Origin: Streptomyces sp. NBC_00490
GTDB lineage: Bacteria; Actinomycetota; Actinomycetes; Streptomycetales; Streptomycetaceae
Assembly: GCF_036013645.1 (NCBI RefSeq)
Contig: NZ_CP107869.1
Location: 2,480,001 to 2,544,000 of the forward strand
Direction: 5' to 3'
DNA: 64,000 nt
Shown: positions 25,182 to 59,971 of the stretch, piece by piece
Layout of the letters: every line of letters starts with the position of its first letter
How positions within the stretch are numbered: position 1 is the first letter of the stretch
Translations under genes and position numbers: made by a program
Notes under the pieces: model-generated
The model's database searches: none
The model's input: only the letters and a program-made list of their open reading frames with translations
What the model was told of the DNA's origin: nothing

Positions 25182-25210
25182 TTGACTCAGTTCACGAAAA
25201 CCTCCATGAT
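25182..25210 (+). promoter_or_regulatory. promoter with island motif TTGACTCAGTTCAC, copy A
   Basis: TTGACT at 25182-25187, a 17-base spacer and CATGAT at 25205-25210 form a plausible sigma-70 promoter reading toward the 25270 gene. TTGACT continues into CAGTTCAC, the same 14-base element found before three other defence units. Because it lies between divergent genes it may also affect the UvrD-type gene. Confidence 0.6.
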
Positions 25211-29473: not shown

Positions 29474-30540
29474 GCCTTCTCCTCGACCAGTTCGATGAAC
29501 TCCTGCGTCATGCCACGGAAAGCGTCGAACCCGCCCTGGTAGCCGTACTTCTGCCGCAGGGTACCGCGACCGACGAACTCCGCCGAACCGGCGATGTCGT
29601 TCTTCTCGGGGATGAAGGTCGGCAGCACGGCGGGGAGCTTCTTGTCGCCCTGAAGTCGCCTGACGGTGTTCCAGTGGACCGTCGAATTGGCCTTGTATTT
29701 CGTGATGACGATGCCGATCTCCTTGATGGTCTCCCCCAGGTCGTCCGCGAAGGCCCGCACCCGCCGCTGGATCTGGGGGATGCCGTAGGTGGACAGGACG
29801 TCGGGAATGGTCGGGATGATGTATCCCTCGGAGATGCGTAGACCGTTCAAAGTGACGATGCCGAGGTTGGGAGGGCAGTCGACGAGCACGTAGTCATAGT
29901 CATCAATGATCTTCCGGATCGCCTTGCGCAGGAGATCGGTGGGGTTGTTGGCGTGGAAACGCCCCCTGGGCATGGACGCCAGGCGGTCCTGGACGTCGAT
30001 GAGGTCCAGCGAGGAAGGCAGGAGGTCCACCTTCGTCACCGCGTCCACGGAAGAGACATTGCGCTGGAGTGTTTTCTCCAGGTCGAACTCCAGAGGCTCG
30101 TCCTCGGGCCGGAGGGCATCCTTGAACAGGGTCGCCAGGGTGTATCCCTCGTCGTTGAGTTCCTCCCACCTCTCCTCCCCGATCAGGACCGTGGTCAGAT
30201 TGGTCTGCGGGTCGAGATCGACCACCAGGACCCGCTTACGGAACTCCGCGGAGAGGAACTCCGCGAGTCCGGCCGTGGTCGTGGTCTTCCCGACTCCGCC
30301 CTTCAGATTGATGGTCGAGATGACATGGGCTTTGGGTGCCATGTGCTTCTTCCTCCGTTTGAGGTAGCGCTGAATCTGACTCGCCCGGAAGACCGGACCG
30401 CTCCGCAGGTCCGCGACGGGAGCGGGGAAGTGTTTGTCACGAGCGCGCCAATTCGCTACGACCGTCCGGCCGACCCCCGCCATCTCCGCCACTTCGAACA
30501 GTCCGACGAGTTGGTCTTCCGCCTCGGGCGTGCCTGCCAT
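29470..30540 (-). CDS. parA: ParA-like ATPase with N-terminal MerR-like HTH
   Basis: 356 residues. Residues 10-65 form an excisionase/MerR-like winged HTH (LVGLFEVAEMAGVGRTVVAN, FRASQIQRYLKRRK). The rest is a Walker-type partition ATPase: deviant Walker A NLKGGVGKTTTTAGL, VLVVDLDPQTNLT, and Walker B DYDYVLVDCPPNLG. The ATG has GGGGAGATGTC immediately upstream. HTH-ParA fusions repress their own operon in plasmid partition loci; two palindromic sites just upstream fit that. This looks like the partition cassette of a former plasmid or integrative element. Confidence 0.87.
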   Translation of the reverse strand: MAGTPEAEDQLVGLFEVAEMAGVGRTVVANWRARDKHFPAPVADLRSGPVFRASQIQRYLKRRKKHMAPKAHVISTINLKGGVGKTTTTAGLAEFLSAEFRKRVLVVDLDPQTNLTTVLIGEERWEELNDEGYTLATLFKDALRPEDEPLEFDLEKTLQRNVSSVDAVTKVDLLPSSLDLIDVQDRLASMPRGRFHANNPTDLLRKAIRKIIDDYDYVLVDCPPNLGIVTLNGLRISEGYIIPTIPDVLSTYGIPQIQRRVRAFADDLGETIKEIGIVITKYKANSTVHWNTVRRLQGDKKLPAVLPTFIPEKNDIAGSAEFVGRGTLRQKYGYQGGFDAFRGMTQEFIELVEEKA

Positions 30541-39503: not shown

Positions 39504-39644
39504 GCGGGCCTTCCGGGGTCGGGGCGGGCAAGCGTGGATCGAGGGCAAGAGTGGTCGGGCGTGCGAACCGGGGCGGTGACCGGAAGGCTTGTCGGCGGGC
39601 CATGGGGCGGGGGTGGGCCTATGCGGTCCGCCCCCGCCCCGAGG

Positions 39645-44924: not shown

Positions 44925-45007
44925 GTGATCCTCACTAGCTCCCGACGTGATCCACGCCCCACCGTAGTGGGTGAGGCGCACGGGACGAACCGCCCCGCCT
45001 TCACCCC

Positions 45008-45037
45008 ATTAGAGCAAGAGCATGTGAACTCAGTCAA
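45008..45037 (-). promoter_or_regulatory. promoter with island motif, copy B
   Basis: On the minus strand TTGACT (45037-45032), an 18-base spacer and TCTAAT (45013-45008) form a good promoter for the DISARM-like operon. TTGACT is followed by GAGTTCAC, giving the shared element TTGACTnnGTTCAC (45024-45037 as its complement). Confidence 0.65.
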
Positions 45038-45147
45038 CGAATAAAGCGTCGCGCGGACGGCATTCGAAGCACCACCGTGTCACACTCTCCCTGACACCAG
45101 CCCGGGCAGGGCGCGGCAGGGCACGGAGGGGACGGGCCGCAGCGCAA

Positions 45148-46161
45148 ATGGACACCGGAACACTGATCGCCGGTCGCTACCGGATCAAGCGCCTCATCGG
45201 CCGGGGCGGCATGGGAGTCGTCTGGCTCGCCCACGACGAGAACCTGGGCCGCGACGTGGCGCTGAAGACCATGAACGTCGATTTAGGACTCACCGAGGAG
45301 CAGCGCGCCCGCGACGCCGAAAGGTTCCGCCGGGAGGCGCAGGCCGTCGCGCGACTCGACCATGCGGGCCTCGCCACCGTCTACGACCTCGGCGAGGAGA
45401 ACGGCACCCGCTTTCTGGTCATGCAGTACGTGATCGGGCCCCCGCTCGACGACCGGATCATCGAGGAGGGCCCGCTCTCCATCGAGGAGACCGCGTCGAT
45501 CGGCGTCCAGATCGCCTCCGTTCTGGGCTCGGTGCACGCCCGCGAGGTCGTACACCGCGACCTCAAGGGCAGCAACGTCGTGATCCGCACGGACGGCGTG
45601 GTCAAGGTCCTGGACTTCGGCGTCGCCGCCTTCCTCGACCCGGACACCACAGGCCTCACCACGACCGGTGAGCGCCCCGGCAGCCTGGAGTGCATGGCGC
45701 CGGAACAGGTGCGGGGCAAGCCGGTCGACCCCCGCACCGATCTGTACGCGCTGGGCTGTCTGCTGTACGCGATGCTGACGGGCGAGCCGGTCTTCACGCA
45801 CGAGTCCGAACTGATGCTGCCCGGCATGATCCTTGAGCAGCCGCCCGTACCGCCCGGAAGGCTCCGCGCGGGCATCCCCTCCGAACTGGAGGACCTGGTG
45901 CTCCAGTTGCTGGCCAAGGACCCCGACGAACGCCCCGCCCACGCCGGCGAGGTGTGGCGGCGCCTCGCCGTGTGGCTGCCCGAGCGCCGCACCCCCGAAC
46001 AGGCACTCGTCCCGTGGGCCGAGGTCGACCCGCTTCGGCCCTTCACCCACCCGATGGGACCCGAAGCGCGGCCGGTGCGGGCATGGGCGGCATCGGGGCG
46101 GAACGGCCGACCGGGGCGGACGGGGGCGGCGTCAGGGCGGCACGGCCGGCCATCGCGCTGA
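45148..46161 (+). CDS. soluble Hanks-type Ser/Thr protein kinase
   Basis: 337 residues. Complete kinase domain: glycine loop LIGRGGMGVVW, Lys40 in VALK, HRDLKGSNVV (Asp139), LDFGV (157-159), MAPEQVRG, and DPDERP near its end. The last 60 residues are a Pro/Arg/Gly-rich disordered tail. There is no transmembrane segment or PASTA sensor, so it is cytosolic. TTA codon at 45283-45285, unusual among its neighbours. The gene is divergent from the DISARM-like operon and precedes a methylase gene by 179 bases. The ribosome site is distant and weak. Confidence 0.9.
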   Translation: MDTGTLIAGRYRIKRLIGRGGMGVVWLAHDENLGRDVALKTMNVDLGLTEEQRARDAERFRREAQAVARLDHAGLATVYDLGEENGTRFLVMQYVIGPPLDDRIIEEGPLSIEETASIGVQIASVLGSVHAREVVHRDLKGSNVVIRTDGVVKVLDFGVAAFLDPDTTGLTTTGERPGSLECMAPEQVRGKPVDPRTDLYALGCLLYAMLTGEPVFTHESELMLPGMILEQPPVPPGRLRAGIPSELEDLVLQLLAKDPDERPAHAGEVWRRLAVWLPERRTPEQALVPWAEVDPLRPFTHPMGPEARPVRAWAASGRNGRPGRTGAASGRHGRPSR

Positions 46162-46220
46162 CCCGCGCGCCTCGCCGACCGGAACGCGACGCACGCCCCC
46201 AAACCCGCCATGACGCATCT

Positions 46221-46234
46221 GTGAACAAAGTCAA
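46221..46234. promoter_or_regulatory. island motif, copy C, before the methylase gene
   Basis: GTGAACAAAGTCAA, the reverse complement of TTGACTTTGTTCAC, lies 107 bases before the methylase start. Here the TTGACT face points away from the gene, so the element is more likely an operator than simply a -35 box. Confidence 0.5.
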
Positions 46235-46340
46235 TGGTCATGTACGCTGACGGATGCAGTTCGGAGGAAGGGTGGCTTGATCACACACCCATGACCGAGG
46301 GAAAAGTCCTCCCTCCACCAGAAATGCCCTGGGAGTGCAG

Positions 46341-48392
46341 ATGTCCACGTCGCGCGCCGTACCGGTGACCTTGGCCGAAATCGCCCGCCTTGCGGGTGTG
46401 GGACGAGCCGCGGTGAGCAACTGGCGGCGGCGGCATCCGTCCTTCCCCGAGCGGATCGCCGGCACCGACACCAACCCGCAGTTCTCCTTGACCGACATCG
46501 AGGACTGGCTGCGCGACAATAAGAAGTTGAAGAAGTCCGCCGAGAGGGAATGGCTCTGGCCCGGTTTCGAGGCGCTCGGCGGGCGGGACGAGACCGGGGC
46601 CGCGATCGCCGAGGTAGGACAGCTCCTCTCAGGGCGGGTGAGCGCCGAAGGCGAAGAGATCCGTGCCGACACACGGGAGTTGATCGAACGGGCCGTGGAT
46701 CTCGGCCAGCGTGAGGGAGGCACGGAAACGTTCGCGTTTCTGCTGCGCCGCTGGCTCGACGTCCATGTGCGCCAAATCGCCACGACTCCCGAACCGCTGG
46801 CATCCCTCATGGCGCAACTCGCCCTCAGGGCGGCCAACGGCCTGGCGGGCGACAGCCCGGGCGGCTCCGGCGGCACCACGGTCATGGACCCTGCTTGCGG
46901 CCCCGGGCATCTACTCCTGGCCGCGGCCGACGCCGCGAGGGCATCCGGCGCCGAGGCACTCACGCTGCTCGGCAGTGACCGGGACGCCGTCCTCGCCTCG
47001 CTGGCGGACTCCCGCATGGCCCTCGCCGAGAACGACGGCCACAGGGAGAAGGAGTGGGCGCAGGTCTCCGTACGGGCTGCTGACTCCCTACGCGACGACC
47101 CGTTCTCCGGCACCCCCGCCAACATCGTCCTGTGCAACCCGCCCTTCAACGAACGGGACTGGGGATACGAGGAGTTGGCCACCGACGCCCGCTGGAGCCA
47201 CGGCCTTCCCCCGCGCACCGAGCCCGAACTCGCCTGGGTCCAGCACTGCCTGGCCCAGCTGCGGCCCGGCGGCGCCGCGGTACTGCTGCTGCCGCCCGCC
47301 GTCGCGGCCAGGAAGGCCGGCCGCCGCATCCGCGGCTCGCTGCTGCGCACCGGGCAACTGCGGGCCGTCGTCGCGTTGCCGCCGGGCTGCGCTGCACCGC
47401 ACAGCGTCTCCCTGCACCTGTGGGTGCTGCGGATGCCCGTCCACGGGGAAGGCACACCGGTGGGCGATCGGCTGCTGGTCGCCGACGCGGCCTCGCGCTT
47501 CCCCCGGGACCCGGAGGAGAAGTGGACCCCCGACTGGGCGGCGATCAGCGCTTTCGTGCGCGAGGCCGTCGAAGAGGCGGACTCCCCACAGGCCCCTGCC
47601 TACGTACGACAGGTGCCCGTCATCGAACTGCTCAACGACGAGGTCGACCTCACCCCTGGACGCCACATTGCCCCGCCCCCGGCGGACACGGCACTCCGAC
47701 TGGCCGAATCCTGGCGGGAGTTCACCGGGCTCACCGCGAACGTGAACAAGTCGGCCAGGCTGCTCGCGGCGCTCGACCTCGCCACGGCCGAGGCGGAAAC
47801 ACCGACGGCAACCACAGTCGCCGAGCTCGCCCGGGCCGGGGCGCTCACCCTGCGCGGCGGCCAGCAGCCGCCGGAGGAATCTATCCACGCCGGCCCGCCG
47901 TCCGACGACGGCATCCCCCTCCTCACCGTCCCCGATCTTCTGGTGGACGGCGAACCCCGCAGCTGGCTCGCTCCCGGCACCGCGGCGGCCGGCGAGGCCG
48001 TCATCGCCGAACCCGGGGACATCGTGGTGGTGGGCGTCGCCCGTGCCTTCTCCGCCTGGGTCCACGAGGGGCCGCCGACCGCCCTCGGCCCCCAACTGCA
48101 TGCCGTGCGAGTACAGCCCGAACAGCTCGACGCCTGGTTCCTCGCCGGTTCACTGCGGGCTCCCGCCAATGCCCGGCAGGCCGGCACCCACACCACGAAC
48201 TCCTCCCGCATCGACGTCCGCCGTCTTCAGATCCGCCAGGTTCCCCTCGGAGAACAACGGCGCTACGGAGAGGCGTTCCGCGAACTCACCGCCTTCGAAC
48301 GGCTGCTGCGCCGCGCGGCCGACCTCGGCACCAGCCTTGCCCGCGACCTTGGCGACGAACTGGCGGCCGGACGCCTGGCCAACCAGGCGTAG
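46341..48392 (+). CDS. N6-adenine DNA methylase with N-terminal HTH and specificity-like C-terminus
   Basis: 683 residues. Residues 8-57 are a MerR-like HTH (TLAEIARLAGVGRAAVSNW, FSLTDIEDWLRD). Methylase motif I VMDPACGPGHLLLAA (182-194), LGSDRD, and catalytic NPPF in VLCNPPFNERDWG (266-269). From about 490, VAELARAGALTLRGG, GDIVVVGV, and an AWFLAGSLR stretch with long helices resemble a type I HsdS target-recognition half. It appears to be a self-contained M-S fusion without an R subunit next to it. ATG with GGGAG seven bases upstream. It may protect host DNA from one of the neighbouring nucleases. Confidence 0.86.
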   Translation: MSTSRAVPVTLAEIARLAGVGRAAVSNWRRRHPSFPERIAGTDTNPQFSLTDIEDWLRDNKKLKKSAEREWLWPGFEALGGRDETGAAIAEVGQLLSGRVSAEGEEIRADTRELIERAVDLGQREGGTETFAFLLRRWLDVHVRQIATTPEPLASLMAQLALRAANGLAGDSPGGSGGTTVMDPACGPGHLLLAAADAARASGAEALTLLGSDRDAVLASLADSRMALAENDGHREKEWAQVSVRAADSLRDDPFSGTPANIVLCNPPFNERDWGYEELATDARWSHGLPPRTEPELAWVQHCLAQLRPGGAAVLLLPPAVAARKAGRRIRGSLLRTGQLRAVVALPPGCAAPHSVSLHLWVLRMPVHGEGTPVGDRLLVADAASRFPRDPEEKWTPDWAAISAFVREAVEEADSPQAPAYVRQVPVIELLNDEVDLTPGRHIAPPPADTALRLAESWREFTGLTANVNKSARLLAALDLATAEAETPTATTVAELARAGALTLRGGQQPPEESIHAGPPSDDGIPLLTVPDLLVDGEPRSWLAPGTAAAGEAVIAEPGDIVVVGVARAFSAWVHEGPPTALGPQLHAVRVQPEQLDAWFLAGSLRAPANARQAGTHTTNSSRIDVRRLQIRQVPLGEQRRYGEAFRELTAFERLLRRAADLGTSLARDLGDELAAGRLANQA

Positions 48393-48420
48393 CACATCGG
48401 CTCACCCGCAACGCCTGGCG

Positions 48421-49905
48421 TCACGCCTCCCCGCGTCTGGGCTCGGCCAGGCGGGCCGTGAGCTGGGCGTCGACCGCGTGGCGTACGGCCTCGACACGAG
48501 CCGCGAGTTCCGGTGGCAGTCCGGCGGCGGTGCGGCCCGCCGTGTCAACCGCCGCGATGGCCGCCTCCAGTTCACCGAACGTGAGCCGGCACTCGGCCGT
48601 GCGCAGCCGGATCAGCGCGCGATCGGCCCGCTCGGCCGGGCCGTCCCCGTGAATGAGATCGTTGTCGACGGCCTGGTAGAGGCGGGCCGCAGCGCCGAAG
48701 TTGCCGGAGAGGCGGAATCCGTCCGCAGCCCCCTGCCACACGCGACGCACCAGAGGGCGCCGATCACCCCACTCCTTGCGAACCCGTTCTGTCAGACCGT
48801 GCAGCCGGTCGGTCGCGTCGCCCGGCTCACCGGACGCGATCTCCGACTCGGCCTGCGCGCAGAGCTGTTCCACCACGCGGGCGTCCAGCCACTCGTCGGC
48901 CGGTGCGGACGCGACAGGCAGCGTGAGAGCGACCGGACGCGGACGAACAGCCCGGTCCCGCGGCCGACGCAGGGGGGCGGTGGGGTCGGGGTGGGTGCGG
49001 GGCCTGGGTTCGGGATCGCCGATCCCCGGGGCGAACGGGTCGAGGACCTCCAGGACCTCGTCAACGGCCGGGCGCTGCTCGGGCTTCTTGGCGAGCATCC
49101 GCAGTAGGAGATCGTCGATCGGCTCCGGGATGCCAGCGGCGTACGTGCTCGGTGGCAGCGGCTCCTCGTTGAGGTGCTTGTCGGTCAGGCCGGACTCCGC
49201 GCCGAGCGGGAACGGGGGCCGCCCGGTGAGGAGTTCGTAGAAGATGCAGCCGAAGCAGTAGACATCCGTGCGCGTGGTGGGCTCGCGCTCCAGGAGCTGC
49301 TCCGGCGCCAGATAACCGCGGGTGCCAAGCGTCGAACCGTGTGCCGTGTAACGGGTGGCGTCGGCGTGCAGCGGCTTGGCGATGCCGAAGTCGATGAGGA
49401 CGGCCCACCCCTCTTCATCGATCATGATGTTCGCGGGCTTGAGGTCCCGGTGTACGACCGGGAGCGTGTGTGCGCAGGCCAACGCCCCTGCCACCTGGAT
49501 GGCGACAGCAACCGCCGTGGCCAGAGGCAGGGGGCTGTGCTCGTCGAGGAAGGTCCTCAGACTCACTCCGGTCACCAGGCGCATGGCGATGTAGGGGACG
49601 CCCCGGTGCGATCCGCTCCCGTAGAGTTCGGTGATTCCCGGATGATCGAGCGTGCCCAGGAGGTTGGCCTCGCGCCGGAACCGGGCGTTCCTGACGGTGA
49701 GTTCGACATCCCGCTCGTACGGGTCGAGGCAGTACAGGGCCTCGGAGTCGTGGCGCAGGAACTTCACCGCCACCTCCCGCCCCCCGGACACCTCTCGGGC
49801 CCGCCAGACCTGGGCCATCCCGCCCTTGCCCAGAGGGTCCTTCAACTCGTAGCGCCCGTCGACCAGATCACTCACGCCGGGCTTGTACGTATCCGCGTCC
49901 ACCAC
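48421..49905 (-). CDS. Ser/Thr protein kinase with C-terminal helical repeats
   Basis: 494 residues. Kinase domain: LGKGGMAQVWRA, Lys48 in VAVKFL, VHRDLKPANI (Asp154), IDFGIAK (172-174), GTRGYLAPEQ and PEQRPAVDEV. After a Pro/Arg linker (about 296-330) the C-terminal 150 residues are helical with TPR-like spacing (FGAAARLYQAVDN, FGELEAAIAAVDTAGRT). No membrane segment. The GTG at 49905 has GAAGGGGC upstream; a GTG at 49920 has none. It converges on the methylase and is divergent from the pPIWI-RE operon, sharing its promoter region. Confidence 0.88.
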   Translation of the reverse strand: MVDADTYKPGVSDLVDGRYELKDPLGKGGMAQVWRAREVSGGREVAVKFLRHDSEALYCLDPYERDVELTVRNARFRREANLLGTLDHPGITELYGSGSHRGVPYIAMRLVTGVSLRTFLDEHSPLPLATAVAVAIQVAGALACAHTLPVVHRDLKPANIMIDEEGWAVLIDFGIAKPLHADATRYTAHGSTLGTRGYLAPEQLLEREPTTRTDVYCFGCIFYELLTGRPPFPLGAESGLTDKHLNEEPLPPSTYAAGIPEPIDDLLLRMLAKKPEQRPAVDEVLEVLDPFAPGIGDPEPRPRTHPDPTAPLRRPRDRAVRPRPVALTLPVASAPADEWLDARVVEQLCAQAESEIASGEPGDATDRLHGLTERVRKEWGDRRPLVRRVWQGAADGFRLSGNFGAAARLYQAVDNDLIHGDGPAERADRALIRLRTAECRLTFGELEAAIAAVDTAGRTAAGLPPELAARVEAVRHAVDAQLTARLAEPRRGEA

Positions 49906-49976
49906 TGTGCCCCTTCGCACCGCTGCGCATCAGACCCACCAGCGTAGCGTGAAAGATTCTGGACACGAGACGTCCA

Positions 49977-50006
49977 TGGACTCAGTTCACAGACTTATGC
50001 CATGCT
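49977..50006 (+). promoter_or_regulatory. promoter with island motif TGGACTCAGTTCAC, copy D
   Basis: TGGACTCAGTTCAC at 49977-49990 differs by one base from copy A. With TGGACT as -35, CATGCT at 50001-50006 is an acceptable -10 at 18 bases, giving a leader of about 70 bases before the nuclease start. The divergent kinase start is 71 bases on the other side. Confidence 0.6.
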
Positions 50007-50083
50007 CTAGTGGCGCCCGGACGTCCTCGGACTCCCGTTGCTCTGGGCACCTCCTGCCCATACCGCCTGTCACGGGGGTCACC

Positions 50084-51829
50084 ATGCAGAACCCACCCGG
50101 CGTCGTCGGCCACGACTGGTTGATCAGGGCGAGCCCCCGGATGGCCCGGCCCGACGACGCGGCCTGTCCCACCCACCGACGCACCGCGATGCGGCCTCTG
50201 CTCGTCGCCGACCCGGCCGTGCCGTTCCGGCGGCCACCCCGCGAGGAGTTCGGGTTCGGCCCGCTGTTCACCGCCCTCGACCTGCTGGAATACGACGGAT
50301 GGTCCGTGGAGCGGGTACGCGAGGAACTCCGGGGCACCCGCGGTCCCTTCCGGGGATGGGGCGCCCCGGTCCACCCCGCCCACCTGGCCTGGACCGCCCA
50401 CGCCCTGGAGCGCTACGTGGCCGCCCGTACCCGCGAACAGGCAGCCGCCGTCGAGGCCGGGCTGCCTGAGACCAAGCCGGTGAAGCAGCCATGGACGTGG
50501 CGCACTTCCCGCACGGACGCTCCCGACGCGCGTGGCGCCCGGCAGTACGAGCACACCCTCTGGGGCCGCATGTACACCTCCTCCGACGGAAGGGTGCGCG
50601 ACCTGTGGCTGCCTTCCATGGGCCGGGCCAAGACCCACCGCCCCGACGCGGAACTCGGGGCCGTGGCACAGGTGATGGCCTTCGGCGCGCCCACGCCTCG
50701 CCGCAAGCAACGCGCCCAACCTCCGCCCACCGCGACCGAGAGCACCTGCTTGCCCCAAGTGGTCCGCGTCTTCGACGTCGGGTGCGCCGACGGGTCCGTG
50801 GAGAAGCTGCTCTCCGAAGACCCCGCCAAGGCGAGTCAGCGGTTCAGGGACGACGCTGTGCCTGCCTTCGTCACGGCTGCCACCGAACTCGGCGTGCAGC
50901 CCGGGGAGAGCTGTGTCGACTGCAAGGCCATCGCCGGCTGCACGGATCTGAAACGCACCCCGCGGCTGTGGGGCGGGCACCCTCCGGCTCTCGCACGCCC
51001 ACGCCGCTCTGTCTCCGTCTGGGACCTGCGGCTGCACGCCGAGTGCCCCGCCCAGTACCACCTGGTGCGGCGACTGCACCTCAACGACCTCTCGGCCGAG
51101 GACCGGGGGGCACGGCGCGGCAGAGCCGTCGATGCCTGGCTCGACGCAGAGCACGCCGAACGCCCGGTGCGCGGCTGCCGGGACCGCGAGATCCCCGAGC
51201 CGACGGCGATACGGGCCAGGGCCGGACTCGACGACACCTCCGCACGCGAGGCTGCCGGGATGCTCGCGGAACACCGGCTCCTGTGCCCCCTCAACGGACT
51301 TGACGCCGACGAGCAGGTGCTCGTACAACATCGGGTCACGGCCTACGTGCCCGAACTCGACATCGTCGTCCTCGCCGTACCCGACCTGGTGTACACCCAC
51401 CGCGGCCGGTGGATCTGGCGCGAGACCAAGACGTCGGCCCGCCCGCTGTGGGAACGCGATTCCCTGCTCCACACCTATCCCCAACTCGCCCTCGGTGTCC
51501 TGCTGTTCCACGCGGGCGCGCTGGGCGACGACCCGCGCCGCTCCTGGGTCGAACTGGAGCACCTACGTGAGGGCCACGGGGAGAGTCGGCTCGAACCCAT
51601 CGACCCCGGCCGCGACGAGAACGTCGACGAAGCCCGGGCCGTCATCACCGAACTCGCCCAGCCACTCCTGGACGACACCACCTACGAACCGAGGACCGGA
51701 CGCCACTGCCACGGCTGTCAGGCCCGGACCTGGTGTCGGCCCGGCACCGCTTACGTCACCGACCATCCGCGCCCGCCGAGCCCCGACACGCAGACCTCGC
51801 CACGAGGAGACGCCACGCCCCATGCCTGA
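50084..51829 (+). CDS. Cas4/AddB-like Fe-S PD-(D/E)XK nuclease
   Basis: 581 residues. A 300-residue N-terminal region has its own Cys cluster (CVDCKAIAGC, about 277-286). A RecB-type nuclease follows: AECPAQYHLVRR (Cys321), AVPDLVYTH (Asp434), WRETKTS (Glu447, Lys449), YPQLALGV, and terminal HCHGCQARTWC (Cys542, 545, 551). The spacing C-n-C-x2-C-x5-C is that of Cas4/AddB [4Fe-4S] nucleases. ATG with GGGGGTCACC upstream. It heads a run of four same-strand genes and overlaps the next start by 8 bases (ATGCCTGA), so it is probably part of the pPIWI-RE operon although it is not in the basic three-gene set. Confidence 0.83.
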   Translation: MQNPPGVVGHDWLIRASPRMARPDDAACPTHRRTAMRPLLVADPAVPFRRPPREEFGFGPLFTALDLLEYDGWSVERVREELRGTRGPFRGWGAPVHPAHLAWTAHALERYVAARTREQAAAVEAGLPETKPVKQPWTWRTSRTDAPDARGARQYEHTLWGRMYTSSDGRVRDLWLPSMGRAKTHRPDAELGAVAQVMAFGAPTPRRKQRAQPPPTATESTCLPQVVRVFDVGCADGSVEKLLSEDPAKASQRFRDDAVPAFVTAATELGVQPGESCVDCKAIAGCTDLKRTPRLWGGHPPALARPRRSVSVWDLRLHAECPAQYHLVRRLHLNDLSAEDRGARRGRAVDAWLDAEHAERPVRGCRDREIPEPTAIRARAGLDDTSAREAAGMLAEHRLLCPLNGLDADEQVLVQHRVTAYVPELDIVVLAVPDLVYTHRGRWIWRETKTSARPLWERDSLLHTYPQLALGVLLFHAGALGDDPRRSWVELEHLREGHGESRLEPIDPGRDENVDEARAVITELAQPLLDDTTYEPRTGRHCHGCQARTWCRPGTAYVTDHPRPPSPDTQTSPRGDATPHA

Positions 51830-53090
51830 CCAACAGCTCGTACCGGACTGGCTGTCCAACCCCGATGTCGTCCTCCTGCGGGACGTGGCCACCGCCGTAC
51901 TGCACCTGGCGGCCGTCGACCGCCTTGACTCCTTCACTCTGCCCTACCCGGCCGGCGCGCAGCGGGCCCTGGATGCTCTGGTACTCCAGTGCCTGCGCAA
52001 CGGCGCCAAGCCCCCGGCCGGGGTGCCCGAGATGATGCGCTGGGCCCGCGCCCGCCCCTTGGGCAGCTGGCCCCTCGACCGGCTGCCCGCGGACCTGTTC
52101 GACACCGCGGACCGGCTGATCGACGAGGATTCCGGAGAGCCCGCGCAGCTCTGCCACGAGCTCGCCGTGCAGGGGTATGGCGACAGCACCGGACGGCAGT
52201 ACGACCGCCTGGTGATCCACGAGGCCCTGCGCGCCTGCCGGGCCGTGTCGTCACCCGAGTCGTACACGGCCTTCCGTCGCCTCCTGGTAAATCGGCCTGT
52301 CCTCACCGAGGCGGACTGGACCGAGGTGAGCACCGACCTCTTCCTCGACCCCGTGCGCTTTCTCATCGAGGAGATCTACGCCCCCGTCCCCCTCGGGTTC
52401 CGCCGGGACGGCGCGTGCCTGTGCTGTCACCGCTGCCTGACCCTGCTCCATCCGGTGTCCGACACCGAGTGGTGGTGCGAGCGCGACCAGTGCCGGCACC
52501 AAGGTCCCCCACCGCGCGGTCGGCAACTCGTCGCGTCCGAGGTGGGCGAGCTGCGTCAACTGCGGAAACCTTTGCGGCAGTTCGTCACCGGCCCTGGACG
52601 CGCCGAGGTCTTTCTGGAGGGCGAGCTACGCGCCCTGGGCCTCACCGTCGAGATGTGGCCCGGCTTCGACGCGTACGACCTTCGCATCACCTTCCCCGAC
52701 GGTCACGTATGGGCTGTCGACGTCAAGGACTGGGCACACCCCGCCTTCCTCGGACGCGCCGCCACCGCCGTCCGCCCCGAGCCCCCGTACGACGAAGCCT
52801 GTTGGGTGGTGCCCGCATTCCGGGTGCGTGCCCGCCGTGACTACCTGGCCATGTACGCCAGGGAGCGGGGCGCGGGGGCGGGCGGTCTGCGGCTGCTGAC
52901 GGACGATCAGCTGAAACGGACCGCGCGGCTGCGGCTGTCCGGCGAACGCGGGCCGGACGCGTCCATCGCGCCCCTGCACACAGTGCCTCCGGCCAGGGAG
53001 CACGGCGGGGCACGCACAGCGTCGTCCCGGTCCGGAAACCAGACGGCGGCGACCGACGGCGCCGGGAAGAAGGGACCAGACCATGCGTGA
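51822..53090 (+). CDS. pPIWI-RE-associated restriction endonuclease-fold protein
   Basis: 422 residues. The N-terminal 190 residues are helical; a zinc-ribbon-like segment follows (CHRC at 202-205, Cys219, Cys224), then a PD-(D/E)XK core: FLEGELRALG (Glu268), YDLRITF (Asp286) and WAVDVKDW (Asp300, Lys302). The Ser/Gly/Ala-rich C-terminus looks disordered. Size, zinc ribbon and position directly before a DinG-type helicase and a PIWI-RE protein match the REase of the three-gene pPIWI-RE islands described by Burroughs, Iyer and Aravind. Both ends overlap neighbouring genes by 8 bases. Confidence 0.82.
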   Translation: MPDQQLVPDWLSNPDVVLLRDVATAVLHLAAVDRLDSFTLPYPAGAQRALDALVLQCLRNGAKPPAGVPEMMRWARARPLGSWPLDRLPADLFDTADRLIDEDSGEPAQLCHELAVQGYGDSTGRQYDRLVIHEALRACRAVSSPESYTAFRRLLVNRPVLTEADWTEVSTDLFLDPVRFLIEEIYAPVPLGFRRDGACLCCHRCLTLLHPVSDTEWWCERDQCRHQGPPPRGRQLVASEVGELRQLRKPLRQFVTGPGRAEVFLEGELRALGLTVEMWPGFDAYDLRITFPDGHVWAVDVKDWAHPAFLGRAATAVRPEPPYDEACWVVPAFRVRARRDYLAMYARERGAGAGGLRLLTDDQLKRTARLRLSGERGPDASIAPLHTVPPAREHGGARTASSRSGNQTAATDGAGKKGPDHA

Positions 53091-56000
53091 CCGTAGCAGC
53101 TGGTACCAGCCGGTCGTCGCCGCACTGAGGCCTTGGCCCGAAGAACACGCCGGGACCCGGCCCGCTCTGCTCTGCCAGGTCGAGCTCGCTCTGCGGCTGA
53201 TGGAGACCGTGGCGCCCGGTCACGCTGCCGACGGGGCGTGGACGCTCCTCGGCGGCTACGGCCTCGCCTTCGCGCGGGCCTCGAAGCTCCCCACTGGCAC
53301 CACCGAACAGGTCGCGCTGGCCGCGGCCCGGCACCTGCTCTGGCCGATGCGCCGCGGCCGGATGTGGCAGCAGAGCCTGGACGCCTACCTGGAACTGCCC
53401 GAACGGCTGCGCGCGTACCGCGTCCCGGCGGCGGGGGAGCCCGCCCATCGGGTCCCCCTCAAGGTGGCGGCCGACCGCTTCACCACCTACGACGACGCGC
53501 TCGCGAACCTCCCCGGCTTCGCCACGAAGGTGCTTCCCCCGGCGGAGGCGGGCGAACACCGCTTCATGGACCGCCGCCACCGGCGCACTTCCGTCACGGT
53601 CCCCGCCGATCTCGTGCGGGACCCCTTCCCCGGCCACCCCCTCACCGCCGAACGCCCGGCCACCGCAGGCCCCCTCGACGTGCCACTCGACGAACTCGCC
53701 GACGTCGCACGATGGATGGACGCGGAGGAGCAGCGGCGCGGGCTCAAGGCGGGGAACTGGGAGCAGCGTCTCGCCCAACTCGACCTCGACACCCGTACCC
53801 CGGACGGGACAGACTTCGAGGCGGCGTCCGCGCTGCCGCTCCACCGGCTCACCCACCTCGTCGGCATGGTCGGCGCCGGTAAGTCGACCTTGATGACCCT
53901 GCTCGCCGTCTGGGCGTACCACAACGGCCTGCGCATCACTCTCGTCGTCGGCGACGTGGCCGAACAGCTGACGCTGACCGAGCTGTTCCGCACGCTCGGC
54001 CTGAGCGCCGCCCTGGTGCAGGGGGGCACGACGCGGCTCCAGCACACCCAGCGGCTGCACCGCAGACTCGCCGCACGGGGAGAACACTCCCTACTGGCTC
54101 ACACCGGACCCGTCTTCGCCCACCTCAGCACCGCCTGCCCGCTGGACGCCCTGCGCGCACTCGACACGTCCGAGCCCTTGCGCTACACCGACGCACCGTG
54201 CGGTGCCCTTCACCCCGCTCGGCGCCAGGAGACCGCCGAGGAGCCCGCGGCCGAGCGCGCGGTACGCGAGCTCGAACGAGCCCGAGGCGCCGTCGACAGG
54301 CAGGGCGCCACGGACGACAACGATACCGACGAGGAGGACCTGGGCACCCCGCACGCCTGCCCGCTGTGGAGCGTCTGCCCCCGACACTCCGCCGCGCGTG
54401 ACCTCGTGGACGCGCTGATCTGGGTGGCCAACCCGGCCAGTCTCGTCCAGACGGCGGTTCCGCGTCAGCTCAACGCCGAGCGCCTGCGCTATCTGGAGCT
54501 GGCCTGCCTGCGCAGCGACATCGTCGTCGTCGACGAGGCCGACCGCGTACAGATGCAGCTCGACCAGATGTTCGCCCCGTCGGCCACGCTCGTCACCACC
54601 GGTGTCTCCGACTCCTGGCTCGACCAGCTGCAGACCCACGAGATCGCCGAACTCGCCCGGCAGGGACGGCTCCAGCTCTCCGACCAGGACGTGGAACGGT
54701 GGTCCGCCGCCCTGGACGTCGTTGGTTCTGCCGCGGACCGGCTGTACGCCATGCTCATCGACGACGGAGCGCTGCGGGACTGGGCGCAGATCGACTACTT
54801 CAGTGCGTGGACCCTCCAGGAGAAGCTGCTGCACGCCTGGTACCCGCTGACGCGAGGCCAGGCCGCCGGGCGACCGGACAGCACGAGCGAAGGGGACGTC
54901 GAAGACGAGAGCGCACTCTACGAGGACGAAGACGGGCTTGGGGCCGATGGCGACTCCCCTGTCCCCGACGCTCCCTGGGCGCAGCGACGCACGGATATTA
55001 CCGGGTTCTTCGACACGTTCCGCGACGATCCGCTCGGCGGACGCGGCCCCTATGGAACCCCCGCCGACGAGCTCACCGCCCTCGCCCACGACGTGCTGCA
55101 CACCCTCGACGAGAAACAGACACGGCGCCGTGTCCGCACGCTCCTCGACTCCCTCCTTGTCGGAGCGCCGGGCCCGGAACAGCGCCCCATGCCCGCCGCC
55201 GAGCGAGGCAAGGAGTCTGCCCCCGAGGACGTACCACTCACCGAGGAGTGGCGTGAACTCAACGCACGGCGGCTGGAGTTCACACTCGTCCTCGCCGCCC
55301 TGCACCAACGCCTGGACCGGGTGACGTTCCTGTGGCCTCAAGTGGAGGCAGCGCTACGGCTGGACTCCGCGGCCCACGAGCTGACCCGCCGCCCGCCCCT
55401 CGACTACGCGCCACTGCTGCCCGAAGCGCCCATGGGCAACGTCCTGGGCTTCCAGTACCTGGTGGACGAACGGGCCGCCGCCCGCAACAAGGACGGGCAC
55501 CGCACCGGCACCCTGCGCTTCTTCCGTTGCGCGGGCGTGGGCCGGGAACTGCTCCTGGGTCTTCACCAGCTCGGCGCCGACCCAGGCCTCGGCAAGGCAG
55601 GCCCACACGTGCTGCTGATGTCGGGCACCAGTTGGGCCGGCACCTCTACCCGGGCCCACGTCCTCGCCCCCGTCCGCGCCGTACTGAAACCGCAGCGCAA
55701 GGCTCTCGATGCTATCCGGAAGACCATGTTCCGCACCGAGTTCCTCTACGACGCCGCAGGACAGCCGATCCGGCTCTCCGGCCAGGACCCCGACCAGCGC
55801 GAGGACGTCCTGCGCCTGATGATCGACCGGCTCGCCCGGTCCCGGAGCGACGGCAACTCCTCCCCTCTCCAGAGCGAACTCGCCCAGATCCCCGACCAGC
55901 GCCGCAAGCGTGCCCTGCTTCTGGTGGGCAGCTACGCGGAAGCCAAGGTGGCCGCCACCGCCCTGAACGAGATCCCGCGCTGGCGTGGCCGGGTACGCGT

Positions 56001-56847
56001 CCTGGCCGCCGACGACGCCGAACTGGAGGCCGCCGTCGACGGGACGGCGCCGACGGGGAGCCAGGCGCCGGGCACGGGATCAGGTGCAGGAGCGGTCCGG
56101 CGTGGGGACCTCGCGTCCTTCGCCGACGACCCGGACGCCGAACTGCTCGTGGCGCCCCTCCTCGCCGTGGAGCGAGGACACAACATCCTCACCGCCCCCC
56201 AACGGCCCGGCGAGGAGAAGGTGGCGGCGTTCGGGACGGTGTTCTTCCTTGTCCGCCCGCACCCCCGCCCCGACGACCTCTCCCTGGCGGTCTTCGCCAT
56301 CAACGACTGGGCGACGCGGTTCGTACGCGGTCAACTGAAGCTGCCGGACGAAGGGACGTTCTGCGACATGGTCACCCAGGCGGGGGACCTCAACGCGGCA
56401 GGCAGCGCTTTCAGGACCACCGCACGCGGCGTGTGGCGGCACGTACTGTCACGGCCCTACATCTACTCCTCGCTCTCCGATGACGAGAAGAAGTCCTTCG
56501 TCTGGGACCAGCTCGTCACCATCTGGCAGGTCATCGGGCGCCTCGTCCGCGGTGGCGTACCCGCCCGCGTCGTGTTCGTCGACGCGGCCTTCGCACCGCA
56601 ACTCGCTGCGGCACAGACCCCCTTCACCGGCCAGGGCCGGCGTCCACGCCGCCCAGGCGACCCGGGGCTGCTCGTCCGACTGCGGGACGTCCTGGCGCCG
56701 TACTTCGCCCAGAGCGACACCGACACCGTCGCGTACGGCGCGTGCACCGACCCCGCCGACGCCGCACTCGTCGAGCTGCTCTACCGCCCGCTGTACGAAG
56801 CACTGTGTGCCATGGGGACGTCACCCGGCCCGCGATCGGTCGACTGA
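53083..56847 (+). CDS. DinG-type helicase of pPIWI-RE system
   Basis: 1254 residues. After a 250-residue N-terminal region comes Walker A GMVGAGKST (261-269), a DEAD motif in IVVVDEADR (about 484), and between them four cysteines (Cys352, Cys373, Cys426, Cys432) placed as in the Fe-S domain of DinG/XPD helicases. C-terminal helicase regions include LVAPLLAVERGHNIL and WQVIGRLVRGG (motif VI). An acidic insert lies near 620-640. The ATG overlaps the REase stop (ATGCGTGA). The third core gene follows after 82 bases. Predicted to unwind or remodel DNA for the PIWI-RE protein and nuclease. Confidence 0.85.
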   Translation: MRDRSSWYQPVVAALRPWPEEHAGTRPALLCQVELALRLMETVAPGHAADGAWTLLGGYGLAFARASKLPTGTTEQVALAAARHLLWPMRRGRMWQQSLDAYLELPERLRAYRVPAAGEPAHRVPLKVAADRFTTYDDALANLPGFATKVLPPAEAGEHRFMDRRHRRTSVTVPADLVRDPFPGHPLTAERPATAGPLDVPLDELADVARWMDAEEQRRGLKAGNWEQRLAQLDLDTRTPDGTDFEAASALPLHRLTHLVGMVGAGKSTLMTLLAVWAYHNGLRITLVVGDVAEQLTLTELFRTLGLSAALVQGGTTRLQHTQRLHRRLAARGEHSLLAHTGPVFAHLSTACPLDALRALDTSEPLRYTDAPCGALHPARRQETAEEPAAERAVRELERARGAVDRQGATDDNDTDEEDLGTPHACPLWSVCPRHSAARDLVDALIWVANPASLVQTAVPRQLNAERLRYLELACLRSDIVVVDEADRVQMQLDQMFAPSATLVTTGVSDSWLDQLQTHEIAELARQGRLQLSDQDVERWSAALDVVGSAADRLYAMLIDDGALRDWAQIDYFSAWTLQEKLLHAWYPLTRGQAAGRPDSTSEGDVEDESALYEDEDGLGADGDSPVPDAPWAQRRTDITGFFDTFRDDPLGGRGPYGTPADELTALAHDVLHTLDEKQTRRRVRTLLDSLLVGAPGPEQRPMPAAERGKESAPEDVPLTEEWRELNARRLEFTLVLAALHQRLDRVTFLWPQVEAALRLDSAAHELTRRPPLDYAPLLPEAPMGNVLGFQYLVDERAAARNKDGHRTGTLRFFRCAGVGRELLLGLHQLGADPGLGKAGPHVLLMSGTSWAGTSTRAHVLAPVRAVLKPQRKALDAIRKTMFRTEFLYDAAGQPIRLSGQDPDQREDVLRLMIDRLARSRSDGNSSPLQSELAQIPDQRRKRALLLVGSYAEAKVAATALNEIPRWRGRVRVLAADDAELEAAVDGTAPTGSQAPGTGSGAGAVRRGDLASFADDPDAELLVAPLLAVERGHNILTAPQRPGEEKVAAFGTVFFLVRPHPRPDDLSLAVFAINDWATRFVRGQLKLPDEGTFCDMVTQAGDLNAAGSAFRTTARGVWRHVLSRPYIYSSLSDDEKKSFVWDQLVTIWQVIGRLVRGGVPARVVFVDAAFAPQLAAAQTPFTGQGRRPRRPGDPGLLVRLRDVLAPYFAQSDTDTVAYGACTDPADAALVELLYRPLYEALCAMGTSPGPRSVD

Positions 56848-56929
56848 AACACGCCAACAACCACCCTGGGCAGCACTGTCGGCGGGCAACCGCACCAGTT
56901 CACGTACGGACATCGCAGGGAGAACCGAC

Positions 56930-59900
56930 ATGTACAAGAACATCCGCCGATCCGCGTACCACCTGGCCGAGGAGGGCACCCCCTGGACCGAGGACTTCCA
57001 CGCACTCCCATTCCCCGAACACTGGCATGCCGGGCTCCTCGAACTGCACAACCACGGGCGGGACGAGGAGAAGCGGCAGCCGACGCTGCCCACCCGCCGA
57101 CTCGACGGCGTGCTCCAGACCCTCGCCCCCGACGTGATCGTCCGCCCCCGGCCGCGGATCCCCGTGGAACCGGGGCCGCAGGCCGCCGAGGACTTCTGGA
57201 TGTATGTACCGGCCTCCGCGCCCGACCCCCTCCCGGGCCGTTCCATGCAGCAACTCCTCGACGCCTGGCTGCGTACCCTCGGTCCCAAGGACTCCGCACA
57301 GGATCCCCGGTTCCGCTCGCTGTTGCTCGCGAGCAGCACCGAGCTGAAGCAGAACCTGCCCGAGTGGCAGCCGGTCAGCGGCGTCGAACTCCTCACCACC
57401 CCGACCACCCGGGGCGGCACTGCCGCCCCGGAACCGCGCCAGTTCCAACTCGCCACCGACGCCCTGGCACGCCGCATCCTGACTCTCGCCCCCTTCCCGT
57501 TCGAGGGCGGGGAGCTGCGGTTCCGGGCGCTGCCCCGCGGACCTCGCGACCAGGGCGCGGAACTCATGTCGCAGCCCCTGTGCCGGACCGTCAAACGCAA
57601 GGAGTGGTGGTTCTCCGTCCTTCTGAACATCTCCCTGCACACCACGCCGTTCGACCCTAGGCCGCGCCTCCACCTGCACTGGGGTGTACGCCGCTGGGCG
57701 ACCCACCCCCGGACCACCACCAAACGCCTCAACCTGCCCTACCGGGAGGCCACTACGGTCTACCTGCGGCCCACCATCCCCTGGCTGCCGGGCGCACCGG
57801 CCACCGAACGCTACGCACTGGCACGCCTGCGCCGCGACCGGGCCGCCGACACCTTCGTCTGGTCGGAGAACGACACCGCCGGCATCCTGCGCGGACTCAG
57901 CCTCGCCGGCAACTTCCCCGATCCCGAACAGCTCCTCACCGAACCGGTTTCCTGGATCGGCGAGGGCCACGGCGTCCGCGCCGCCGTGGTCCACAGCACC
58001 AGAATGGGCAAGCACGAGATCGGCACCGGCTTCATGCCCAACCAGCGGGCCCAGCTCACCGAATGGGCCGAGCAGGCCCTCCCTGAAACACTGGCCCGGG
58101 TACCCGACCTCACGCGCGGACGCGGCAAGGGCATCGGCGCTCCGGAGAACCGGCGGCCCAAGCCCAGGACCGACGAGGCCAAGAAGACCGAGCTGCTGCG
58201 TGAGACCCGGGCACGGCGCGTGGCACTCGCGGCACAAGCCCGGATCGCCTCCCACGGCCCGGAACAGGCCGACCCGCCCGTGGTGGAGGCCCGGCTGCTG
58301 TGGCAGTCGCCCGAGGTACGCAGCGAGGCAGTGGAACAGTTCGCCAAGGCCCTGGGCCTCGACGGCGACGGCGGCGCCAGTGCCGCCCACGTCACGGACC
58401 GGGACTTCGACGAGGCCACGCCCGGAGCACCGGTCGTCCTGGAGTGGCGGACGGCGGAGGTCACACTCCGGCTGCGCTGCCTGCCCCTCGCCGACGGACT
58501 GGGCGACCGGCTCGTGCCCGACCCGGCCGTCAAGGGCAAAGGCGCGGCGCTCGCGGCTGCCGTCGCCGGACGGCGCCGCGCCCTGCGCGCATGGCTCCGC
58601 ACGGACGGCGCGGACCCCTTCCGCCCCGAACTCGCCCTCGTGGAAGTCGCACACCGCAGCACATTCCGCCCGGCGTCGACGGACCCCAAGTTCGCCATCC
58701 GCCTCGGGTGCGCCGACGCGGGCCTGTTGACTCAGTTCGTCGTCACCCCGTCCACCGACCGGCAGATCGACAATGCGGAAAGCCTCGACCACCGCACGTG
58801 CAGCTCGTGGCTCGACGGACTGCGGCAGCTCGGCGTCCGCGTCCTGCCCCAGCACACCCTCGGTGACGATCTTCCGGACTCGCTGCAATACGCGGCGGTG
58901 TGGATGGTGAAACGTCGTAAGGACGGCCCGACCCGGTTGCCCAAGCACCTGCCTGTGGCCGTCCTCGTCACCCCGCTCCCGGCCGGGGAAGGCCTTGCAG
59001 CCGTACGCGGCTGGGATGACACCGCGGGGGAATGGGTGCCCTACCCGCAGTTCCTCCTCGGTCTGGTGAAACAGGCGGAGATCGACCCCGAAGCGTTCAC
59101 GGAACCCGGGACTCCAGACGATGACGCACGTCCCGATGCCCCTAGGGTCACCGGCAAGCAGTGGCGCAGCAACCTCGCCCAACAGCGCAGGGAGACCGCG
59201 GCATTCCTCCAACGCGTGCTGCACTCCCTCCGAGGGCAACCCACCGCACTGATCACCCACGCTCAGAACAGCCGACTGCACTGGCCCTGGCTCCAGGACG
59301 GCCAGACCGAACGCGATCTGATCAAGACCGGCCACGCCCCAGCAGGACGACTGGACGACGAACTGCGCCTCGTACGCGTGCGCGGATGCGGCGGTCGCGA
59401 GAGCGCCCAGTGGTGGGGGCTGGCCGACCCGGGCAAGCCCCACGGACAGCCGGCCGGCTTCTGGGCACAGGATCCCCAGCAGCAGTACAGGGCTTCATCG
59501 CGCGAGCGGATCTTCTACAGCACCACCGAACGCCCCGGAACCCATGCGATCTCCCCCGCACTCGACCGCCTCGCTACCCGGGTCAACGCAGCAGGCAACC
59601 TCACCTCGCAGGCGGGCACCAGCGCCTGGAACCCGACCCTGGTGGAGATCGCGGTACTGGGCTGCCACGAGGATGACGATCCGGCTGCCCCCGTACCGGA
59701 AAAGCCCGACGACCCCGAGGCGCTGGCCCTCGCCATGCACCAGCTCCGCCAGGCCCCGGACTACGCCGCTGCCCTGTCTCTCCCCCTCCCACTCCACCTC
59801 GCGGGGCTGGCCCAGGCATATGTCCTCCCGACACTCGCCGACGGCGACCGGACTTCGAACGAGGGGTCAGACACACCTGCTGGAAACCAGAGCATGGAGG

Positions 59901-59971
59901 ACCCAGATCTCGCCGAGGCGGCCGGACTGCCCACGACTGACGACGGGATCGACACCTACGCGGTGCCCTGA
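56930..59971 (+). CDS. pPIWI-RE protein (prokaryotic PIWI homologue)
   Basis: 1013 residues with ATG after GGGAG. The N-terminal half contains LHLHWGVRRWATHPR and RLNLPYREATTVYLRPTIPW, typical of the long N-terminal module of this family. The PIWI/RNase H-like part runs from about 770 to 970: TALITHAQNSRLHWPWLQDG, LVRVRG, RERIFYSTTERPGT, WNPTLVEIAVLG, and the C-terminal LPLPLHLAGLAQAYVLP, comparable to the final PIWI helix region. The DEDX catalytic tetrad of active Argonautes is not evident; the family instead keeps conserved Arg and Glu residues. A 40-residue acidic tail ends the protein. Guide type and target cannot be read from sequence. Confidence 0.84.
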   Translation: MYKNIRRSAYHLAEEGTPWTEDFHALPFPEHWHAGLLELHNHGRDEEKRQPTLPTRRLDGVLQTLAPDVIVRPRPRIPVEPGPQAAEDFWMYVPASAPDPLPGRSMQQLLDAWLRTLGPKDSAQDPRFRSLLLASSTELKQNLPEWQPVSGVELLTTPTTRGGTAAPEPRQFQLATDALARRILTLAPFPFEGGELRFRALPRGPRDQGAELMSQPLCRTVKRKEWWFSVLLNISLHTTPFDPRPRLHLHWGVRRWATHPRTTTKRLNLPYREATTVYLRPTIPWLPGAPATERYALARLRRDRAADTFVWSENDTAGILRGLSLAGNFPDPEQLLTEPVSWIGEGHGVRAAVVHSTRMGKHEIGTGFMPNQRAQLTEWAEQALPETLARVPDLTRGRGKGIGAPENRRPKPRTDEAKKTELLRETRARRVALAAQARIASHGPEQADPPVVEARLLWQSPEVRSEAVEQFAKALGLDGDGGASAAHVTDRDFDEATPGAPVVLEWRTAEVTLRLRCLPLADGLGDRLVPDPAVKGKGAALAAAVAGRRRALRAWLRTDGADPFRPELALVEVAHRSTFRPASTDPKFAIRLGCADAGLLTQFVVTPSTDRQIDNAESLDHRTCSSWLDGLRQLGVRVLPQHTLGDDLPDSLQYAAVWMVKRRKDGPTRLPKHLPVAVLVTPLPAGEGLAAVRGWDDTAGEWVPYPQFLLGLVKQAEIDPEAFTEPGTPDDDARPDAPRVTGKQWRSNLAQQRRETAAFLQRVLHSLRGQPTALITHAQNSRLHWPWLQDGQTERDLIKTGHAPAGRLDDELRLVRVRGCGGRESAQWWGLADPGKPHGQPAGFWAQDPQQQYRASSRERIFYSTTERPGTHAISPALDRLATRVNAAGNLTSQAGTSAWNPTLVEIAVLGCHEDDDPAAPVPEKPDDPEALALAMHQLRQAPDYAAALSLPLPLHLAGLAQAYVLPTLADGDRTSNEGSDTPAGNQSMEDPDLAEAAGLPTTDDGIDTYAVP

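Follow-up and report, generated by a model that had tools for sequence, protein, structure and literature searches.

A conserved six-gene pPIWI-RE subtype in Streptomyces and its relatives, with a putative regulator–kinase module common to DISARM

The 64,000-nucleotide stretch of Streptomyces sp. NBC_00490 analysed here (contig NZ_CP107869.1, positions 2,480,001 to 2,544,000; 'the window', in whose own numbering coordinates are given) contains a pPIWI-RE system in which the known triad of restriction endonuclease (REase), DinG-type helicase and pPIWI-RE protein is accompanied by an Fe-S nuclease, a serine/threonine kinase and an N6-adenine methylase with a helix-turn-helix (HTH) region. These three companions belong with this pPIWI-RE subtype, a conclusion based on sequence, namely on gene set, gene order, co-inheritance, catalytic residues and the conserved association of a 15-bp operator with the HTH-methylase. 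It is probable that the six genes comprise an effector operon and a methylase/kinase control module acting through that operator. The genes and the two adjoining operator copies are the following.

46220–46234, plus strand: operator TGTGAACAAAGTCAA, ahead of the methylase gene; exact match to TGTGAACNNAGTCMA
46335–48392, plus strand: HTH-N6-adenine methylase (N6_Mtase, E=2.8e-30); specificity-like C-terminal part; DPACG and NPPF motifs present
48421–49920, minus strand: Ser/Thr protein kinase KinB (Pkinase, 3.9e-45); catalytic Lys, HRDxKPxN and DFG kept
49977–49991, minus strand: operator TGTGAACTGAGTCCA, ahead of the kinase gene in the divergent kinase/nuclease region; exact match
50189–51829, plus strand: Fe-S RecB/AdnA/Cas4-type PD-(D/E)XK nuclease (PDDEXK_1, 8.8e-19; PADLOC PprPDDEXK, 8e-223); the ATG at 50189 is the likely, uncertain start
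51822–53090, plus strand: pPIWI-RE-associated REase (pPIWI_RE_Y, pPIWI_RE_REase) with Y domain, Zn ribbon and PD-(D/E)XK domain
53083–56847, plus strand: DinG-type helicase with Z domain (pPIWI_RE_Z; PADLOC PprDinG)
56930 (likely start)–59971, plus strand: pPIWI-RE protein with X, MID and RNaseH domains

Nuclease, REase, DinG helicase and pPIWI-RE protein form one operon, in which the nuclease stop and the REase start share eight bases (51822–51829), as do REase and DinG. All six domain models of the triad (Y/REase, Z and X/MID/RNaseH_pPIWI_RE) score above the Pfam cut-off, and the REase–DinG–PIWI order with overlapping or closely spaced ends is that of a pPIWI-RE triad. PADLOC Ppr models match these same four proteins, the methylase and kinase matching generic families only. 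Coordinates of the open reading frames (ORFs), Pfam and PADLOC thus bear out the first-pass annotation, made from the letters of the DNA, in its placement of the triad at 51822–59971, its coupling of the Fe-S nuclease to the triad by an 8-base overlap, and its divergent kinase converging on an HTH-N6-methylase. The TPR tail it ascribed to the window kinase fell away, as Pfam finds no TPR there; TPR reaches the cut-off in a paralogous chromosomal kinase. Long ORFs also occur at 51132–53090 and in antisense or out-of-frame positions, such as that of 2063 aa on the plus strand at 38853–45044, opposite the true helicase gene; ORF length alone is misleading here because the GC-rich sequence yields long spurious ORFs. 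Gene starts outside the window were obtained with a simple GC-frame caller of our own.

A REase profile built from 32 relatives recovered 154 relatives in 84,980 species genomes, and the best 80, all actinobacterial, were taken as named loci with a 10 kb flank on each side. In tblastn searches with the window proteins, down to about 35–45% identity, the order methylase> <kinase nuclease> REase> DinG> was found in 66 of the 80, two of which reach a contig end ahead of the PIWI gene. The methylase lies on the minus strand in six named loci (L045, L075, L076, L077, L079 and L081), contig ends cut another four (L035, L057, L058 and L065), and L080 gave no methylase match by tblastn. L070 (S. violaceusniger) begins in the middle of the REase with nothing upstream and is a truncated copy, and L013 and L036 have no methylase beside the kinase and carry a DISARM-type methylase downstream, a retention that we count in favour of the proposed control module. 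Hidden Markov models (HMMs), built from the same loci on which they were scored, detect the nuclease in 78/79 assessable loci, the kinase in 72/77 and the methylase in 74/76.

An independent census covered 392 genomes of the genus of the window, 111 of which have the pPIWI-RE RNase H domain. Of about 145 listed PF13032 matches, 80 regions were fetched, the strongest first plus a few weaker ones, so that weak matches are under-sampled; 78/80 have a DinG match. Our own division of these regions by HMM content gives five classes. Class I is arranged as in the window, and in class II the methylase is divergent from the nuclease. Class III (L173, L184, L187, L189, L194–L197, L202, L203 and L229) has kinase and nuclease, with a 932-aa NB-ARC/TPR gene in the place of the methylase in 11/11 loci (by clustering, with Pfam run on one). 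Class IV (L209, L212, L214, L215, L217–L219 and L221–L224) has the nuclease with a 371-aa gene (11/11) and a 296-aa gene (9/11), neither of clear family, and has no kinase or methylase. The triads of class V nearly all lack nuclease, kinase and methylase, the exceptions being L230 and L236, which have the nuclease; plasmid triads of Nostoc, Calothrix, Microvirga and Streptomyces also lack all three. Of 30 compact triads (among L191–L243), 14 have a 418-aa gene of unknown kind on their upstream side.

A tree of the DinG helicases (163 rows, 147 of them different since some genomes were fetched twice; FastTree only) places the window in a clade of 96 rows with support 100, spanning several actinobacterial families. 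Nuclease, kinase, methylase and operator are all present in 91 of the 96; the other five comprise four loci cut by contig ends and the truncated L070. The fewest changes required on this tree are three each for nuclease and kinase and five for methylase. Pairwise identities to the PIWI protein correlate (Pearson, host kinship ignored) at 0.949 for methylase, 0.960 for kinase, 0.962 for nuclease and 0.969 for DinG, and the identities of all six proteins covary at 0.92–0.97 on the same basis. Chance clustering of the genes is rejected on the tree and these correlations. The island is crowded with defence genes, among which kinases and methylases are common, so the companions might be hitch-hikers without functional ties; given a set kept in 91/96 clade rows across several families, the identity correlations and one operator at both companion genes, this is very improbable. 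The neighbourhood survey that the first-pass annotation had proposed therefore comes out in its favour in the clade of the window: nuclease, kinase and methylase accompany pPIWI-RE there, and homologous operons bare of them are not the rule.

The nuclease carries the H...D...ExK...Q motifs and the C plus CxxCx5C cluster that define the Fe-S RecB/AddB/Cas4 type. By reading of coordinates, as for the methylase below, no more than 10 kb separate 53 of the 57 nuclease matches in the 392 genomes from a pPIWI-RE match. It is not the new component that the first-pass annotation took it for, PADLOC already having a PprPDDEXK model, of which we found no mention in the literature (open papers). This near-exclusive linkage, the Cas4/AddB/AdnA fold and the presence of ACE1 (Argonaute-associated Cas4 proteins) among the best structural matches would suit a nuclease that supplies the PIWI protein with guides or trims ends on its behalf, in the way that Cas4 handles CRISPR spacers. 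However, ACE1 is equalled or surpassed in score by AdnA and RecE, so that end degradation fits equally well; a sequence search of solved structures returned one chance-like match with the nuclease and none with its profile. The PIWI protein also argues against guide-making, which the first-pass annotation had raised and which nothing here indicates. At both RNase H strand positions inspected, β1 and β4, the clade of the window has no Asp (VAVLVTP, THAQN; alignment of 26 loci without a catalytically proven member), making RNase H cutting unlikely, and a guide-making nuclease is accordingly a rather improbable option. In the accessible part of the original description, the RNase H catalytic residues are retained only in a subset of the family and do not define it (PMC3702460), and a Pseudomonas stutzeri relative is described, in the portion of the report available, as cutting DNA with RNA guides (PMC10991935). 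The conserved R and E of the β-sheet extension are present as LRLVRVRG...E, by our own assignment to the published residues; a sequence search of solved structures with the PIWI protein gave no match. The pPIWI-RE protein of this subtype is probably a catalytically inactive, non-cutting sensor.

The operator was spotted by k-mer comparison of the two promoter regions; a direct-repeat scan, which works within one region, missed it. The operator-like motif that the first-pass annotation had placed at both kinase and methylase is strongly supported, TGTGAACNNAGTCMA being exact at both and conserved across genomes. Enrichment within the window is modest (four matches at up to two mismatches against 1.05 expected; 2/100 shuffles reach four), and it is cross-genome conservation that carries the claim. 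In the 91 class I clade loci, which include some genomes twice, TGTGAACNNAGTCMA at up to two mismatches precedes the kinase gene in 89 loci and the methylase gene in 79, the best match being oriented toward its gene in every case. None of the class III, IV, V and plasmid triad loci examined has it at up to one mismatch. Among the different sites with enough flank for promoter analysis (73 kinase and 63 methylase), a −10-like TANNNT follows 45 nt after the motif start in 39/73 kinase sites, which would place the motif near −57 to −43, an activator-type position. At the methylase, TANNNT falls at +24 in 13/63 sites and at +23 in six, which would set the motif over the −35/spacer, a repressor-type position. 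This is weak evidence for a logic like that of M.SsoII, in which the protein would repress itself and promote its partner.

Within the methylase, conservation is highest in the HTH, with a mean identity of 0.76 against 0.53 for the methylase core and 0.49 for the target-recognition domain (TRD) part; Pfam matches it in the window protein only below the cut-off (E=0.0078). Its recognition region GVGRAAVSNWRRR is identical in the window, sister and chromosomal methylases, all of which have the same operator, and the variant VKPTAVSNWRKR accompanies a changed half-site, AGCCAA, in L081, L228 and L233. The genome of the window has five exact operator copies, three of them within the window; the fourth precedes, by about 140 bp, the gene of a further HTH-methylase, a chromosomal one with motif IV HPPF (L252, 3894–8380) that has a TPR kinase two genes on. 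Core methylases of other genomes are adjoined by similar operators.

The methylase also occurs apart from pPIWI-RE. A search scoring three candidates per genome gave a best 46 matches that all aligned from residue 1–9; 22 of them adjoin a pPIWI-RE match and one (G422), on a broken contig, adjoins a nuclease, the other 23 lying elsewhere. Ten of the 23 were fetched: all ten have the operator just upstream at up to one mismatch, and five stand beside two kinases and a DrmD-type gene (in L177, DrmD scores 1411 bits and DrmMI also scores). Seven class I loci (L018–L021, L023, L047 and L067) carry the DISARM DrmD, its two kinases and one methylase, followed by pPIWI-RE. With 23/46 matches away from pPIWI-RE and 5/10 of those fetched beside a DrmD-type gene, the methylase is a module common to DISARM. 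Of the 20 further exact operator sites fetched from the 64 counted below, five lie between a KinA homologue (KinA is described below) and a DEAD/MZB helicase, four ahead of drmA (DrmA 913–954 bits), two ahead of UvrD-type helicases, one ahead of an AAA_11 helicase and two ahead of HTH-methylases.

Several observations weigh against a control module built on this operator. Methylase and kinase are transcription units separate from the effector operon, and pPIWI-RE operons without them exist, so that they cannot be a general requirement of pPIWI-RE. The operator flag needs at least 11 changes on the DinG tree, above any gene, in part because of chance two-mismatch matches, and no operator at up to two mismatches is found in 12/91 methylase and 2/91 kinase regions. 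The fifth exact copy in the genome of the window overlaps a flavoprotein gene; among the 20 fetched sites, one lies ahead of a 792-aa gene without family match and five (L256, L258, L259, L260 and L264) near no gene tied to defence, which may be chance copies or unknown members of the regulon. The covariation of HTH and operator is seen in no more than a handful of loci, L216 has a canonical HTH and no operator upstream of its methylase, and the operator is likewise absent in L076 and L077. Another regulator could occupy the operator, and the fullest form of this objection, that the word belongs to an unlinked regulator of which the HTH-methylase is merely one target, would draw on L216 and on sites at helicase and DISARM genes without an adjoining methylase. 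It has to contend with the HTH being the best conserved part, with HTH variants that accompany changed half-sites, and with the distribution of exact sites in 40 chosen genomes. There, 64 sites occur in 23 of the 26 genomes with a full-length HTH-methylase (G776, G599 and G741 have none), and the reversed-pattern control gives 0/40. The 0/14 obtained in genomes without any methylase match proves little, being about the chance level for a word expected, by our own estimate, fewer than 0.1 times per genome, and it is the 64 presences that are informative because the word is so rare. On this balance an unlinked regulator seems fairly improbable.

The methylase could alternatively serve restriction–modification (R-M), marking N6-adenines of self DNA while nuclease, helicase and PIWI protein attack unmarked DNA under licence from the kinase. 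The methylase of the window, whose S-adenosylmethionine (SAM) and NPPF motifs are intact and whose C-terminal part is specificity-like, would be suited to this; methylases accompany the effector genes throughout the clade, and L013 and L036 retain one although displaced. Motif I is intact in all methylases compared. NPPF is the canonical form of motif IV, and it is found in 38 of 75 methylases, the other 37 being non-canonical (NPPS 9, SPPT 6, NPPA 4 and others, YPPS and APPV among them) with the effector genes kept; the ten fetched sisters outside pPIWI-RE all have NPPF or NPPY. Rapid change, as would be expected of R-M specificity, is not what the TRD part shows, its conservation being close to that of the core; classes III–V, moreover, manage without a methylase. 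Because motif IV is non-canonical in 37/75 while the HTH stays conserved, the self-modification mark proposed in the first-pass annotation cannot be the general rule; what survives of that proposal is that the window copy, with its NPPF, may still methylate. Parts of class I seem able to do without methylation but not without the HTH, R-M logic appears unlikely as the principle of the subtype, and a regulator that derives from a methylase and connects a defence island is a better fit than a self-modification mark.

In the mechanism that we favour, the pPIWI-RE protein would probably bind guide or RNA–DNA hybrid structures without cutting, the DinG helicase would open DNA and the two PD-(D/E)XK nucleases would degrade it, as their domains suggest. 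The HTH of the methylase-like protein would bind the operator ahead of its own gene and of the kinase gene, as well as those ahead of DISARM and helicase genes in the same islands. The protein would thereby regulate its own expression and set the level of the kinase, which in turn would control the defence proteins. We infer the direction of this regulation, phosphorylation by the kinase and its targets, and an anti-phage effect of the whole. DNA methylation would be optional: lineages like that of the window, which keep the catalytic motif, may mark self DNA, and others would keep the regulator only.

The window holds further genes of defence-like character around the locus.

13232–17923: DruE-like helicase, defence-like gene
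21201–22955: sigma-70-domain gene, MzaA match
22988–25196, minus strand: UvrD-type helicase (GajB-like), one-mismatch operator upstream
25182–25196, minus strand: operator copy with one mismatch, about 32 bp upstream of the UvrD-type helicase
26048–28648: GmrSD fused to MGMT-type DNA-binding domain, defence-like gene
29473–30540: ParA-like ATPase; its N-terminus matches the HTH region of the methylase family
32377–44981, minus strand: operon of DEAD/MZB helicase (DruE/DrmA-like), SNF2 helicase (DpdE 1052 bits, DrmD-like) and 1547-aa Eco57I/DrmMI-like methylase
45023–45037, plus strand: operator TGTGAACTCAGTCAA, exact match, between the minus-strand helicase operon and KinA
45148–46161, plus strand: second Ser/Thr kinase, KinA, with this third exact operator upstream

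KinA was considered as a pPIWI-RE component and rejected, since it adjoins the DEAD/MZB helicase operon, which starts at the operator at 45023 and is divergent from it. The KinA–operator–helicase arrangement is repeated in five other loci, and in L048, L051 and L053 KinA lies on the other side of the pPIWI-RE system in the opposite orientation; by gene arrangement, KinA is to be regarded as a partner of the helicase operon rather than of pPIWI-RE.

These sites suggest that several defence systems may be under the joint control of one regulator. Tentatively, and slightly short of an even chance in our estimate, an island-wide regulon in Streptomyces and its relatives would centre on the HTH-N6-methylases, the operator switching the methylase gene as well as the pPIWI-RE kinase, DISARM and helicases; of the members linked to pPIWI-RE, about half would probably have lost methylation and kept the SAM motif, with which they could sense SAM supply or the occupancy of methylation sites under phage attack. 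A stable six-gene subtype with kinase and HTH-methylase is a concrete unit compared with the bare triad formerly described. If the HTH reads the operator, the locus would show how pPIWI-RE, DISARM and helicase systems are switched jointly in one island and how a modification enzyme can become a defence regulator. To our knowledge little work has yet addressed how defence islands are regulated, and here the question can be tested with a single short word.

In comparison with known systems, pPIWI-RE is given in the accessible part of its original description as a three-gene triad 'without an associated methylase gene' in which the REase always comes first (Burroughs et al. 2013; PMC3702460). The locus described here shares with it the REase(Y+REase)–DinG(Z)–pPIWI-RE order, the overlapping ends and the R and E signature, and differs from that part of the account in the nuclease ahead of the REase and in its kinase, HTH-methylase and operator. 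The Ppr models of PADLOC cover nuclease, REase, DinG and PIWI protein each, with kinase and methylase not among the Ppr models matched; the text of the 2021 PADLOC paper does not mention PIWI, and no account of a kinase or methylase as pPIWI-RE companions was found among open papers. The comparison points to a six-gene subtype, with a putative regulator–kinase module common to DISARM, that is real, conserved and wider than the first-pass annotation had claimed.

Membership of other systems was rejected on scores, the kinase reaching 85.1 bits against a cut-off of 990 for PglW of BREX type 2/Pgl, and the methylase 27.1 against 242.75 for the hsdM equivalog of Type I R-M. MADS (methylation-associated defence) combines HTH, N6-methylase and Ser/Thr kinase. 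Window proteins match mad1, mad2 and mad6, but MAD2 scores 19 against 720 bits and MAD6 158.7 against 460 (NCBIfam cut-offs); the present system further differs in the fusion of its HTH to the methylase and in having PIWI-RE as effector. Class 1 DISARM has sister HTH-methylases and two kinases beside DrmD, and four drmA genes have the same operator; the six pPIWI-RE genes include no Drm protein, and no Drm model appears for them among the PADLOC matches listed (for the kinase, the best 25 of 35 families).

ACE1 (PDB 9iac, 9iab), for which no paper was found, resembles the nuclease in being a Cas4-family fold associated with a PIWI-superfamily protein, at 12–13% identity over about 230 residues; according to the structure entries as available, its partner is an Argonaute and not pPIWI-RE. 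M.SsoII, in the available part of its description, is a repressor of its own gene whose N-terminal region acts at an intergenic regulatory site of 15 bp (PMC3978073). The likeness lies in a methylase with an N-terminal DNA-binding region and a 15-bp site, binding being putative here; as far as that source extends, M.SsoII differs as a C5-methylase of an unrelated catalytic family in a two-gene R-M system, with no kinase and no multi-system regulon. RptR, as presented in the portion of the report at hand, resembles the proposed scheme in that a defence island is governed by one regulator through a short conserved site (PMC12255303), and differs in being a small dedicated repressor, not a methylase, that acts at TAGCTA sites in a Type I R-M island.

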